Positions 1 through 43,825 of a stretch of 64,000 nucleotides of DNA are shown here, piece by piece. Source of the stretch: an uncultured Lachnospiraceae bacterium (GTDB taxonomy: Bacteria > Bacillota > Clostridia > Lachnospirales > Lachnospiraceae); assembly GCA_947174495.1 (NCBI GenBank), contig CAMWJC010000005.1, forward strand, positions 1-64,000, written 5' to 3'. A program made the translations under genes and the position numbers. The notes under the pieces are model-generated. The model ran no database searches. It saw only the letters and a program-made list of their open reading frames with translations, and was not told the DNA's origin. Each line of letters starts with the position of its first letter. The first letter of the stretch is position 1.

Positions 1-741
1 ACCATACTTGTCTATTAATTCCTTTAAGCATTCACTGAAAGTATTTCCATTAAAATATTCTTTTGTTTCCTCATAAAATAATTTGTTCTTTATTACTCTT
101 AAAGTTATTGTTTCAGCTAATACTAATTTATTACTTTCATTACAATTCAAGTGCTTCTTAATATACGTGGTTATCGGATCTTGTTCTTTCCGCTGTAATC
201 TATAAATAAACTCGTCTTTTATATCAGATTCTGTTATTTTATATCTTGCATACTTAAATTTTTGAATTTTCTTTATAGCTTGACTTCCGGACAAAGTCAT
301 GTCATCAATAAATACTATACTTTGATCTTTCTGAATTTCCTGTTCATCTCCAAAAAAGGAAACTGGTAAATCATTTTCCTGCCTAAACAGATATAACACA
401 TATGCTCCACTCTCACCACTTCTTCCTAATGGAACAAATTTTGATTTTTTCAAAACCTGATTTATTTCTTCTAAATTTGCAACTCTATCCTGTAATGCTA
501 TGTGCAAATATTTTTTTAACAGCAATTTACACAAGTGTTTGACTTCTTCCTCATTAAAATATGTAAAATTATATAGCATCCATAATGCAAGATTTTCTTC
601 TACTTCCTTACTTTCCAACGCCTCTCCTGTAAAATTATCCAACCACTTATTTATCATCGATAAGTCCAAGCCATTTCTCCAAGCAACTTCTATAGTTATC
701 CTAATCTGTTTCATTAATTCTTCTGAAGAAGGAATCTTCAT
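1..741 (-). CDS. Phosphoribosyltransferase-like protein (PRTase-CE-like), C-terminus truncated by window edge
   Basis: Hand translation of the minus strand from ATG at 741 is open for 247 codons to position 1 (MKIPSSEELMKQIRITIEVAWRNGLDLSMINKW...FVPLGRSGESGAYVLYLFRQENDLPVSFFG...QSIVFIDDMTLSGSQAIKKIQKF...). IVFIDDMTLSGS matches the PRPP-loop pattern of phosphoribosyltransferases. Not in the ORF track because it runs off the edge. Confidence 0.75.
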   Translation of the reverse strand, partial: MKIPSSEELMKQIRITIEVAWRNGLDLSMINKWLDNFTGEALESKEVEENLALWMLYNFTYFNEEEVKHLCKLLLKKYLHIALQDRVANLEEINQVLKKSKFVPLGRSGESGAYVLYLFRQENDLPVSFFGDEQEIQKDQSIVFIDDMTLSGSQAIKKIQKFKYARYKITESDIKDEFIYRLQRKEQDPITTYIKKHLNCNESNKLVLAETITLRVIKNKLFYEETKEYFNGNTFSECLKELIDKYG

Positions 742-744
742 AAA

Positions 745-1854
745 TTATTTCCCCCTTTTCGATAATTGACTATAATATTCAGTCTTTCTAATATTTGAAA
801 TAATATTTTTTTCTTCAAAACGTATTAATGACTGCACGCCATAACCTTCTTCGACTTCTATAGTTATCCATTTTCGTTTCAATTTTTCAGCACAAAAACC
901 TGTAGTATTACTACCCCCAAACGGATCAAGTACCAAATCATTTTCATCAGTTAAAAAGTTAATAAAAAAGCTTGCTAATTCTAACGGCATCCTTGCCGGA
1001 TGAGGCGTAATATTTTCTTCTCTACACCTCCTCATAAAATAATCATTTGATTTGGTATTAGAAATACTCAACATCGAATATGGTAATCTAAATTCTTTAT
1101 CATCCTCTATTGCTTCAAGTTCAATAACATTATGCGCTATACTTCCATTATTATTTGTTAAAAAGCTCTTTTCACTTATGGAATGCTCTGAAGGTCTTTT
1201 CCCTGCATTATATTCTCCACTTTTCAACAATTTCTTCATACTTTTACTATATGGACGAAGTATTTTTCTATTATCTGCTTTTGGATAATCCGAATTTGCC
1301 ATCCACCACACATGCGTATAACTATCTATTGCTCTTATTCTTTCAATTGTTACCCATTGTGCTGGTGATGGCAACCTCGCAGGATTGTAACACACAAACT
1401 CTTGACAAAGTCTAAGATTAGCTTCTGGATTTTCTAAAAATTGTAACAATGATTTTATCGTTAAAGTCGACTGCACCGGTCGGTTCTTTTCCCATGAATT
1501 ACCCATTTCAATCACAAGAGATCCATTAGGCCTCAGAACTTTTGAAAATAATGGTGCCAGGTTATACAACCACTGTAAATACTCTTCACCTATCATATTT
1601 CCATATTTTTTCTTTTTATTCAAAGGATATGGTGGTGAAGTAATCAACAATTGTACTTTTCCTTCTATACCTAATTCTTTGATTAATTCCTCACATTTTC
1701 CTATATAATATTTCCCATAATCACTTTCGTACAATAGATTGTTCACATTTTCTCCTCTCTTCTTAGTCATTAAAATACTTTTGAAATATCCTAATACCAA
1801 TTTACCATTCGATAAATCTTCGTATACTTTTTCCAATCTTGTACTGTACAACAT
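745..1854 (-). CDS. Beta-class site-specific DNA methyltransferase (m4C/m6A)
   Basis: TSPPYPLNKKKKYG (motif IV) precedes C-terminal DPFGGSNTTGFCAEKLKRKWITIE (motif I); permuted beta-class order. Confidence 0.9.
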   Translation of the reverse strand: MLYSTRLEKVYEDLSNGKLVLGYFKSILMTKKRGENVNNLLYESDYGKYYIGKCEELIKELGIEGKVQLLITSPPYPLNKKKKYGNMIGEEYLQWLYNLAPLFSKVLRPNGSLVIEMGNSWEKNRPVQSTLTIKSLLQFLENPEANLRLCQEFVCYNPARLPSPAQWVTIERIRAIDSYTHVWWMANSDYPKADNRKILRPYSKSMKKLLKSGEYNAGKRPSEHSISEKSFLTNNNGSIAHNVIELEAIEDDKEFRLPYSMLSISNTKSNDYFMRRCREENITPHPARMPLELASFFINFLTDENDLVLDPFGGSNTTGFCAEKLKRKWITIEVEEGYGVQSLIRFEEKNIISNIRKTEYYSQLSKRGK

Positions 1855-2018
1855 AATTCCCTAGAAATTACGTATTTGTAATCCGTTCAAAACTAAACAC
1901 CTATCCACGGAAATGCTATATATCCCCAATTGTAATATGTATCTCCTGAATGATCTTTGCTTTCATTTCTTCTCCAATGTACTCTTTAATATTTTTCAAG
2001 TTATCCCTCACCATAGGC

Positions 2019-2250
2019 TTAATCCGTAATTTTATCCGCAAATATTTCTTCAACTTCCTGTGACTTCATCAGCGTCTTTTTCTCAGCCCTTTCACGCTCA
2101 TAGTCTTCATATCCATAACCCCAAACTTTCCTCGACCATTTTTAGTCAAAAATACAGGTTCTTCAATCTGACAATTTTTTAATACTTCATTATAATTTCT
2201 TAAATCCGATACGGGCAATATATTTGGTATGAAATCAACTTCCTTTCCTT
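2019..2250 (-). pseudogene. Frameshifted Phd/YefM-type antitoxin remnant
   Basis: Minus strand reads DFIPNILPVSDLRNYNEVLKNCQIEEPVFLTKNGRGKFGVMD; after an apparent 1-nt loss near 2110 it continues YEDYERERAEKKTLMKSQEVEEIFADKITD*. No in-frame ATG found. Confidence 0.75.
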
Positions 2251-2418
2251 GATATAGTTTCTTTATTTATGCATATTATACAAAAATAAGCCATAAAACT
2301 CAACGTTAAATTTTACAGCTCACTTTTGTATTTCTATTATATATTCAAAATTCCATATTTGTTGTTGATACATAAATAGATACTCTCTCAAGAACACATG
2401 CGTTGCATCACCAAATCA

Positions 2419-5031
2419 TCACTTTTGAATCATAGCATCAAAGCCATTTTTTCGTATCTTAGCATCTGCTTTTGACATCTTTTCCATTGCATTGATAAAT
2501 TCGTTTCCTGCCTTTATCATATCTTTTACTTGTGCCCAATCATCTGGTATCGGAATAATCATCTCTTGAATATGTCTTGGTTGCAGATGCTGTTGCACAG
2601 AACCATACTCATCCAAAAGCATTAGCGATAATGCAGTGTTTGATGTGAAGTATGCTATTAAATAAGCCCTTAGATTCTTATCCTTAACACGTACTCTAAC
2701 CAAATCATCACTTATTATGTAGTTTTTGGCTAAATTCGCAGTAGCATATGTAACCTTTCCAATCGTACCAGATCGTGTAATAAGAATGTCACCCCTTTGA
2801 ACTCTTAACATGCCTATACAGGCTTTTTGCTGTTCAGTTGCCTTAGACACATCCAACCATTTAATTGTAAATCTTCGAAGTTCCAATGCTCCATTAGCTG
2901 TTAGGTATGGCATTAACCTCTCTGTATCAGAAGGATTATCCACCTTTATACTTGCAGAATTCCATCTTGGACCAATATATATTTTAATATCAGCCTCCAA
3001 TTGCCCAATTGTAGTAGTTGACCAATTTTCTCTATTGTCATATTCCAATACAGTTTTTAACGCAACATTTAATTTAGGCGAATAATGTTGCGGATTAATA
3101 TTATAGTGATCTTTAATATCCTTTTTACCTATTGTAAAGATATATTCAGATTTTTTGTGTTCCCTATTTGCCTTAAAATCTTCATAAGCTTCTGCTATGT
3201 CATCAAGGTCATGATTCAATTTTCCAGTACTATTTCCATTTCCATCCAGCATAAATACAGAATTACCTTTTGAATCCTGCCCAATTCGTTGTGACTGAGC
3301 CATAAAGATTTTATAATCCTCTGCCGGTTTAACACCTTCTGCCATTTTAGAAATAAACAGAATACAAGTTCTGACGCCCGTATCAGGCTGAAATGTATCC
3401 TTATGAAGTGTCACAACACCATTCAATTCATATTTTTCTAATAACCATTCCCTATAAGCCTCGTAACTTACATTATCTAAGAACCCCTTCGGCATGACAA
3501 TTCCAATACGTCCACCAGGTTTCACCCACTCTAAACATCTTTCTAAAAACAACAATTCTGGTGCTTGCCTCTGCAAAAGATCCATATCTTTATCACTAAA
3601 AACAAATTTACCGTCATCATTTTTCTTAAAAGTATGACCAAAAACAAACTGTTTTAATATAGATTTATCTGATATTTGTGAATCAATTTTTTGCCCAGAA
3701 AAAGGAGGATTTGTCGCAATTAATGAAGGTGCATTACTTTTTCCTTGTGCACATCTTGATGCAATCCATGGGTCTAGATATTCATACTTATCTAGAGAAT
3801 TACCTCTAGTCATTCCGGATTGACCATCTCCAGTAAGTAACATTGCACATTTTGCGATTTTTACTAGTCTTGCGGCGATTTCAACCGAAAATACACTCTC
3901 TTTAATTGTTGCAATTTGTCTATCTCTAACTGGTGTATTCGCTAATGTTGATGTAACCACCTTTCGTCTTAAATATCTAAAGATTGCCGTTGCAAATCCC
4001 CCACTTCCACCAGCTGGATCTAAGGCTCTTTCGCCAACTTGTGGATCAAGCATTTTAATCATCATATTAACAACTAACCTATTGGTAAAAAACTGGCCTT
4101 GCTGCCTTTTTAGATTTATATGTGTGAACTGTTCATATGTCTCCCCCATCAAATCCCAATCATCAGCATCATCATTTCTTGCAGCTAAACTCCAGTTTTT
4201 TAATATTCCTACTACTTCTGCAATGCAATCATCACCTACTTGTATTTTTTCATATTCATCGAAAACATCAGGATATTGATCAGCATATTCTCTAAATAAT
4301 TCTTGGATTGTTGCTGCAACATTACGTCTTCCATCCGAAGTATGAAAATCACTATCTGTAATCCAAAACTTAGGATAATCACCTGGTGTAGTTTCATCTT
4401 GAATTTTAGCCAGCAAAATCCTTACCATATCCATAGCTAAATCAAAATCTTCATTTTCCATTCCCCTACCATATAGTTTATTATGACAAGCTGATAAAAG
4501 AAATCTTACATTATACGGTCTTGGTAAATTTACTTTACTCGGTATTGTATCATCTGAATTCCAATCCTCTCCGTATCTCGGCAACGATAGTATTTCATCA
4601 AGACCAACTTCTCCACCCATTTTCTTTTTATATACAAACATTCCATCACCATTTGTCCATACTCCACCAATAGCAGATGTATTAAAAATATAAGAAACTA
4701 ATTGAGCGTATCCTTCTGTTGCATTTGGTTTTTTGCATTCGATAACAAACAGAATATTTCCTTGGTCTTTTTTCAAAGCGCTCTCCTCGTCAACATAAAC
4801 AACAATATCTGCTCTGATTTCAGAGCCATCTTCTGAATTAGTTAGTAATTTTGAACCGTGTTGTATTGATACCTCTCGTAACATATTCTTTTTAGGATAA
4901 CCATAATCAGATTGCAAAATTGATATAAATTTTTGGCGCACACGTTCTTCAGGTGTATCTTTCAATACTTTTCCTGATAAAAAGTCAACAATATCCCCTT
5001 CGTCGTTAATTTCAACATCATTTATGATCAT
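2419..5031 (-). CDS. Single-polypeptide restriction-modification protein: PD-(D/E)xK (HsdR_N-like) + N6-adenine methylase + HsdS-like target recognition region
   Basis: ADIVVYVDEES...LFVIECKKP (nuclease motif), ALDPAGGSGGFATA (SAM motif I), ATNPPFSG (NPPF motif IV), C-terminal NWSTTTIGQLEADIKIYIG...QEMIIPIPDDWAQ similar to HsdS. Confidence 0.85.
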   Translation of the reverse strand: MIINDVEINDEGDIVDFLSGKVLKDTPEERVRQKFISILQSDYGYPKKNMLREVSIQHGSKLLTNSEDGSEIRADIVVYVDEESALKKDQGNILFVIECKKPNATEGYAQLVSYIFNTSAIGGVWTNGDGMFVYKKKMGGEVGLDEILSLPRYGEDWNSDDTIPSKVNLPRPYNVRFLLSACHNKLYGRGMENEDFDLAMDMVRILLAKIQDETTPGDYPKFWITDSDFHTSDGRRNVAATIQELFREYADQYPDVFDEYEKIQVGDDCIAEVVGILKNWSLAARNDDADDWDLMGETYEQFTHINLKRQQGQFFTNRLVVNMMIKMLDPQVGERALDPAGGSGGFATAIFRYLRRKVVTSTLANTPVRDRQIATIKESVFSVEIAARLVKIAKCAMLLTGDGQSGMTRGNSLDKYEYLDPWIASRCAQGKSNAPSLIATNPPFSGQKIDSQISDKSILKQFVFGHTFKKNDDGKFVFSDKDMDLLQRQAPELLFLERCLEWVKPGGRIGIVMPKGFLDNVSYEAYREWLLEKYELNGVVTLHKDTFQPDTGVRTCILFISKMAEGVKPAEDYKIFMAQSQRIGQDSKGNSVFMLDGNGNSTGKLNHDLDDIAEAYEDFKANREHKKSEYIFTIGKKDIKDHYNINPQHYSPKLNVALKTVLEYDNRENWSTTTIGQLEADIKIYIGPRWNSASIKVDNPSDTERLMPYLTANGALELRRFTIKWLDVSKATEQQKACIGMLRVQRGDILITRSGTIGKVTYATANLAKNYIISDDLVRVRVKDKNLRAYLIAYFTSNTALSLMLLDEYGSVQQHLQPRHIQEMIIPIPDDWAQVKDMIKAGNEFINAMEKMSKADAKIRKNGFDAMIQK

Positions 5032-38164: not shown

Positions 38165-43825
<5,661 letters not shown>

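Follow-up and report, generated by a model that had tools for sequence, protein, structure and literature searches.

The genes for a DNA methyltransferase (MTase) and a phosphoribosyltransferase (PRTase)-like protein at the left edge of the window (the whole stretch of 64,000 nucleotides that was analysed, G000:C5:1-64000) are very probably the promoter-proximal part of an operon that runs MTase, PRTase-CE, ORC/CDC6-like ATPase and CARF6, and that is cut by the end of the contig. What emerges is a CARF/ORC system of four to five genes with ThyX or dUTPase attached, which goes beyond what the original prediction, a conflict or defence module of a methyltransferase and a PRTase-like enzyme, could see. 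It is likely that the operon serves in defence, probably against phages. The overall explanation that we slightly favour is that of a truncated MTase/PRTase-CE/ATPase/CARF6 immune operon with a nucleotide-directed effector and ThyX or dUTPase as a buffer. The closest relative of the window region is L002, contig CANRMI010000001.1 of an uncultured Lachnospiraceae MAG, and the features of the left edge are as follows:

1..741, minus strand: PRTase-CE-like effector gene, 5' 247 codons (Pfam PF24390, 1.8e-22); its 3' part is lost at the contig end.
283..318, minus strand: PRPP-loop-like motif IVFIDDMTLSGS, with the invariant DD at 301-306.
742..765, minus strand: MTase-PRTase junction, a 3-nt gap plus a purine-rich (AGGGGGAA), ribosome-binding-like stretch inside the 3' end of the MTase gene.
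745..1770, minus strand: DNA methyltransferase PF01555 with motifs TSPPY and DPFGGSNTTG (Pfam 1.4e-30; PADLOC MTase_II 1.4e-82).
1771..2036, minus strand: ParE-like toxin remnant, frameshifted, aligned at the DNA level with the intact ParE at L002 8673-8972 (PF05016 1.2e-12 there).
2030..2336, minus strand: Phd-like antitoxin remnant plus upstream region, 84% identical in DNA to L002 8315-8622.

The 3' part of the PRTase gene is missing because contig C5 itself ends at position 1 of the window, so that the sequence cannot be extended to the left. Up to that edge, the 247-codon frame that had been reported (741..1, minus strand) is indeed free of stops, and its ATG (741-739) lies 3 nt past the MTase stop (747-745), as claimed; in L002 the gap is also 3 nt. 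The PRPP-loop motif that had been quoted was found at 318-283, with bases 306-301 encoding the Asp pair D146 and D147. The MTase gene placed within the span 1-1854 is real as well, but its start at 1854 made it too long. Homology places the start at the ATG at 1770, since the sequence at 1771-2036 is a ParE remnant and that at 2030-2336 a Phd remnant. This Phd/ParE pair (1771-2336, minus strand) has decayed via frameshifts and deletions and is intact in L002 (8315-8972), so that the predicted Phd remnant can be recognized at 2030-2336 as a decayed antitoxin gene with an intact counterpart. As for the "second R-M locus" described next to it, a restriction-modification (R-M) gene does adjoin the PRTase module, in the form of one 870-aa protein (2419-5031, minus strand) in which HSDR_N_2, N6_Mtase and Methylase_S (specificity) parts are combined into a self-contained enzyme of R-M type. 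Elsewhere in the window (38165-43825, minus strand) there is a type I R-M operon consisting of a specificity subunit, HsdM and an EcoEI-type HsdR.

Several observations concern the identity of the truncated protein. Firstly, its assignment to PRTase-CE was borne out by Pfam: the window fragment matches PF24390 with 80.9 bits, the curated cut-off being 27 bits, and the intact L002 homologue reaches 151.8 bits. The fragment spans profile positions 1-127 of 253, and hence about half of the PRTase is missing. Secondly, 14 diverse PRTase homologues all share D146, D147 and the G of "SG", and nearly all of them the S. Thirdly, the PADLOC retron profile PRTase_III-A is matched by both the L002 protein (7.4e-34) and the window fragment (5.2e-10). 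The AlphaFold check that had been proposed points in the same direction, but weakly: the nearest solved folds are orotate/uracil PRTases with a probability of 0.85-0.97, at a best E-value of only ~0.1, which is not significant, and the model has a mean pLDDT of 68, being poor in the insertion at residues 215-282. A weak OPRT match was all that a PDB sequence-profile search with the PRTase gave, and a protein-only search of 299 genomes of the family returned the window itself as the sole match. The window PRTase is 81% identical to the intact 407-aa L002 homologue and the MTase, by alignment, 92% identical to its own. Against L002, dN/dS is 0.17 for the PRTase, as calculated over 247 codons, and the MTase has a value of 0.054, which shows that both are genes under selection.

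The original prediction also held that more genes lie beyond position 1, and this is what L002 shows. There, a Phd/ParE pair is followed by the PF01555 MTase, PRTase-CE, ORC-CDC6-like AAA+ ATPase (PF24389, 1.5e-93), CARF6 protein (PADLOC CARF6, 5.8e-66) and ThyX (PF02511, 1.2e-54), with thyX located 44 nt past the CARF gene; the operon genes are co-stranded and overlap or are separated by short gaps. By extrapolation from L002, the genome of the window would itself carry the ORC, CARF and ThyX genes, and its operon, too, probably ends in ThyX. None of the three was found on the other contigs of its assembly, which is 78% complete, so that their absence there is uninformative; ThyA is present in this genome (G000), and no ThyX occurs elsewhere in the assembly. 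Taken as a whole, the original prediction was essentially right: the nearest solved folds are PRTases, albeit weakly matched, and neither a lack of conserved linkage with the methyltransferase nor a plainly housekeeping left flank was found.

Conservation of the linkage was assessed by searching plasmids, phage records, IMG/VR contigs and Firmicute genomes, starting either from the PRTase or from the ATPase, which yielded 21 distinct PRTase-CE loci after merging near-identical copies (L002, L004, L005/L012, L006, L007, L008, L009/L010/L081, L011, L043, L044, L045, L078, L079, L080 and L084-L090). MTase, PRTase, ATPase and CARF genes co-occur in 21 of the 21. The MTase-PRTase pairing proposed for the window is therefore conserved throughout this set, with a gene order that varies and an MTase class that changes. 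The four genes are mostly separated by -26 to +12 nt in Firmicutes, rhizobia, Moraxella, Acinetobacter, Klebsiella plasmids and the seven IMG/VR contigs that carry the core; the latter came from a scan with the ATPase alignment, the PRTases being too diverse when aligned to yield a pattern for scanning, and a scan of viral contigs with the L002 PRTase as query gave no match. In Firmicutes the ATPase is rare, with strong full-length matches in 2/399 and 2/391 sampled genomes, every one of which adjoins a CARF6 gene. PRTase-CE exceeded the cut-off in 2/300 genomes, the two that the first search with the ATPase had also picked out. Many genomes gave weak PF24389 matches of about 18-40 bits over a short P-loop stretch, which were set aside as generic matches to AAA proteins. 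A nearly identical ATPase is encoded by ~140 plasmids of Klebsiella, Serratia, Enterobacter and related bacteria, most of them conjugative, and in the three that were examined (L009, L010 and L081) the operon was seen, its genes being annotated as a methylase and hypothetical proteins. The carriers range from Firmicutes, rhizobia, Moraxella and Acinetobacter to Klebsiella/Serratia-type plasmids and prophage contigs, and the sequences show that the operon has spread horizontally. Some copies show particular features. In L080 (6989-10780) the ATPase gene is interrupted by a stretch of ~2.3 kb, and in L005 and L012 it is split into two frames; the neighbouring genes are still open in all three. 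In Moraxella (L011, 2080-4940), a NACHT-domain protein is encoded directly upstream of a dUTPase-PRTase-ATPase-CARF-MTase operon.

The window pair could in principle consist of an orphan methyltransferase and an unrelated PRTase reading frame that are maintained by a toxin-antitoxin pair and have no role in defence, as the Phd/ParE genes directly upstream (decayed here, intact in L002) might suggest. The linkage of the core in 21/21 distinct PRTase-CE loci, the strong purifying selection and the PADLOC and Pfam matches to conflict families all argue against this explanation, which we consider very improbable.

Comparison of the loci shows that the ATPase and CARF genes form a constant core, around which the MTase class and the effector are exchangeable. 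The effector slot is occupied by HD-CE instead of PRTase-CE in L092, L099 and L105, and by a calcineurin-like metallophosphatase in L091 and L103. The MTase slot holds PF01555 (TSPPY), PF02384, Dcm or Dam-type enzymes, Dcm being accompanied by Vsr in L092; no MTase is annotated beside the L103 copy. According to the alignments, the ATPase keeps Walker A GxxGxGKT, Walker B DE and an invariant Arg, and the CARF family conserves GTKP and YxEPxxY. The CARF model (pLDDT 75, pTM 0.81) has two Rossmann-like halves; its best E-values in Foldseek are to universal-stress-type Rossmann proteins, and the list of matches includes Can1, Cam1, Csm6, Sso2081 and a viral SAVED ring nuclease. A PDB sequence-profile search found no solved relatives of either the CARF protein or the ATPase.

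The attachment of ThyX or dUTPase was analysed in a core-first set of 23 loci, consisting of the 21 PRTase-CE loci plus L091 and L092. ThyX is encoded in or beside the operon at eight of them (L002, L044, L005/L012, L006, L007, L008, L080 and L092), and a dUTPase_2 gene (PF08761, ~1e-27) directly precedes it at two more (L011 and L045). Neither is found at the other 13, among them the Klebsiella-type plasmids and each of the seven copies on viral contigs, and ThyX/dUTPase must therefore be regarded as accessory. The operon ThyX proteins are 68-72% identical within the Firmicute group and 65-68% within the rhizobial group, and only ~21% identical between the groups, which implies that the link between the core and ThyX arose at least twice. 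A rough binomial calculation, illustrative in that it assumes a ThyX/dUTPase background of 1%, gives 9e-5 when only four independent gains among 24 loci are counted. The ThyX of the operon comes on top of the housekeeping enzyme: the genome of L002 has ThyA, and genome G378 has a second, distant ThyX. The motif RHRxxSxxxxSxR is kept in the operon enzymes with the sole exception of L103 (RHRMANVNEYSAR), which has N at the first S position. The idea that the Firmicute operon ThyX is of phage-like origin, based on its 72% identity to MT837074, was rejected, since that record looks chromosomal: its thyX adjoins cmk-, plsC- and ispH-like genes, as judged by eye. The label "Bacteriophage sp." of this record (L095) is probably a mistake.

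In the reverse direction, plasmids were searched with the rhizobial ThyX alone. The best 13 records (64.9-100% identity) are all from rhizobia, and ThyX lies beside the ORC-CARF core in ten of them and beside the candidate defence system PDC-M65 in three; here Bradyrhizobium sp. 183 was judged from adjacent match coordinates, and L101 and L102 from gene lengths and order matching L100. The effectors at the ten core loci are PRTase-CE (seven), HD-CE (two) and a metallophosphatase (one). A 14th record, from Acidiphilium (61.5%), has neither the core nor PDC-M65. In the rhizobial plasmids L100 (6938-11290), L101 and L102, PDC-M65A/B comes directly after a ThyX gene of this lineage, and PDC-M65B contains a stretch resembling the PRTase loop, VVIVAATIGSGQS, in which both Asp are replaced.

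These data bear on the question of whether ThyX and dUTPase are functionless passengers that moved along horizontally, the four-gene core working alone. On the one hand, 13 of the 23 core-first loci do without them, and ThyX, which also occurs beside PDC-M65, might be carried as general cargo by defence plasmids of rhizobia. On the other hand, two ThyX lineages that are only ~21% identical joined the same core in two phyla, all of the best 13 ThyX-first records place the gene beside the core or PDC-M65, and the ThyX and dUTPase genes often overlap or nearly abut the operon (-1 and -8 nt from ThyX to MTase; +2 and -4 nt from dUTPase to PRTase). We therefore consider passengers rather unlikely. 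Tentatively, and with somewhat less than even confidence, we propose instead that ThyX/dUTPase is integral to a methylation-keyed immunity built on ORC-ATPase and CARF, with nucleotide-attacking effectors, and serves as the system's own metabolic antidote or co-effector and recruited independently at least twice.

How might such a system function? Many known relatives of PRTases, HD proteins and metallophosphatases act on nucleotides or phosphate esters, and ThyX and dUTPase work around dUMP, so that what they have in common is the nucleotide pool. In the scheme we envisage, the MTase would mark host DNA as self, and the ATPase and the CARF protein, the latter binding a nucleotide-type ligand, would form a sensor or gate. 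Upon infection, or when unmarked DNA is encountered, this gate would license the effector enzyme; the PRTase would then use up PRPP, convert bases or nucleotides, or do both, which would stall phage replication and probably also growth of the cell. ThyX or dUTPase would sustain the dUMP-to-dTMP supply of the host as a built-in metabolic buffer. It speaks against this scheme that the operon encodes no synthase for a CARF ligand. That the effector attacks the nucleotide pool seems to us an evenly balanced proposition, and the role of ThyX as a metabolic buffer is possible though doubtful.

The roles could also be distributed differently. The PRTase might be a signal enzyme that makes or removes a nucleotide-like ligand sensed by the CARF protein, with the ATPase or the CARF protein as effector. 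This would fit with a CARF sensor that is always there in an operon that has no Cas10 or cyclase, and with a slot that holds three nucleotide- or phosphate-handling classes (PRTase, HD and metallophosphatase). Such unlike chemistries would hardly yield one common ligand, however, and swappable slots seem typical of effectors; moreover, Pfam and PADLOC reveal no nuclease or other toxic domain in the ATPase or in the CARF protein. This arrangement is thus unlikely. Another possibility is a modification pathway with no effector, in which ThyX, PRTase and MTase make and place an unusual base as a protective self-modification. ThyX and dUTPase do act at the dUTP-dUMP-dTMP step, nearly all copies include an MTase, and the weak nearest folds of the PRTase are pyrimidine PRTases. 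Yet four unrelated MTase classes fill the slot, including an ordinary Dcm with Vsr, ThyX also joins the HD-CE and metallophosphatase versions that lack a PRTase, and all operon ThyX but one have a normal RHRxxS motif, which makes a modification pathway quite improbable.

PRTase effectors are encountered repeatedly, in retrons as well as elsewhere, and their mode of action has been stated to be unknown (PMC9122126). A single sensor core that swaps PRTase, HD and metallophosphatase enzymes and recruits ThyX or dUTPase leads to the hypothesis of an attack on the nucleotide pool combined with a thymidylate buffer. Since the core ATPase is present on ~140 mostly conjugative Klebsiella/Serratia-type plasmids (the operon being seen in three), the system may affect the phage sensitivity of important hosts. 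In the literature covered, we found no relevant text on "PRTase-CE" or "CARF6", no phage assay or other experiment on the system, and no description of the thymidylate link to the core; the source papers on CARF6 and the CE families probably lie outside that coverage. A 2026 study lists a dUTPase among defence domains that are predicted but not validated, and names a thymidylate synthase domain among the newly validated ones, according to its text in other contexts (PMC13092281).

Several known systems resemble the operon in part. Retrons of type III-A combine a PRTase with a reverse transcriptase and a winged-helix protein (PMC12548924). The PRTase described here belongs to the same family, as the PADLOC PRTase_III-A match indicates, but assignment to these retrons was rejected: the L002 genes are MTase, PRTase, ATPase, CARF and ThyX, without a reverse transcriptase. 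Type II restriction-modification was rejected as well, since neither L002 nor L004 has an endonuclease gene in its operon; the gene at 2419-5031 beside the window pair encodes a separate R-M protein. Likewise rejected were CBASS and type III CRISPR signalling, as Pfam and PADLOC reveal no CD-NTase or Cas10 in the L002 operon. In DprA-PRTase of P2-like phages, a two-gene system with DprA as sensor that protects against T7 and lambda, the PRTase is the presumed effector (PMC9122126); the likeness lies in this presumed role of a PRTase in defence. PDC-M65 shares with the operon the same adjoining ThyX lineage in rhizobial plasmids, and differs in consisting of PDC-M65A/B genes with no ORC-CARF core. 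In the loci tested, the fourth gene of the core matches PADLOC CARF6 (CARF6--CARF_CARF_CARF), down to an E-value of 2.6e-141, and Pfam CARF_Card1 matches the CARF protein at 2.6e-4, which is below the cut-off; the operons described here have no nuclease, CRISPR or cyclase partner. Finally, the Pfam trio PF24389 (ORC-CDC6-like), PF24390 (PRTase-CE) and PF24391 (HD-CE) all occur in the operons found here, the first being matched by the L002 ATPase and the second by the window PRTase, and their accession numbers are consecutive, which points to a shared origin of the three descriptions. The core is therefore of an already known, predicted kind, whose parts are named by Pfam and PADLOC.
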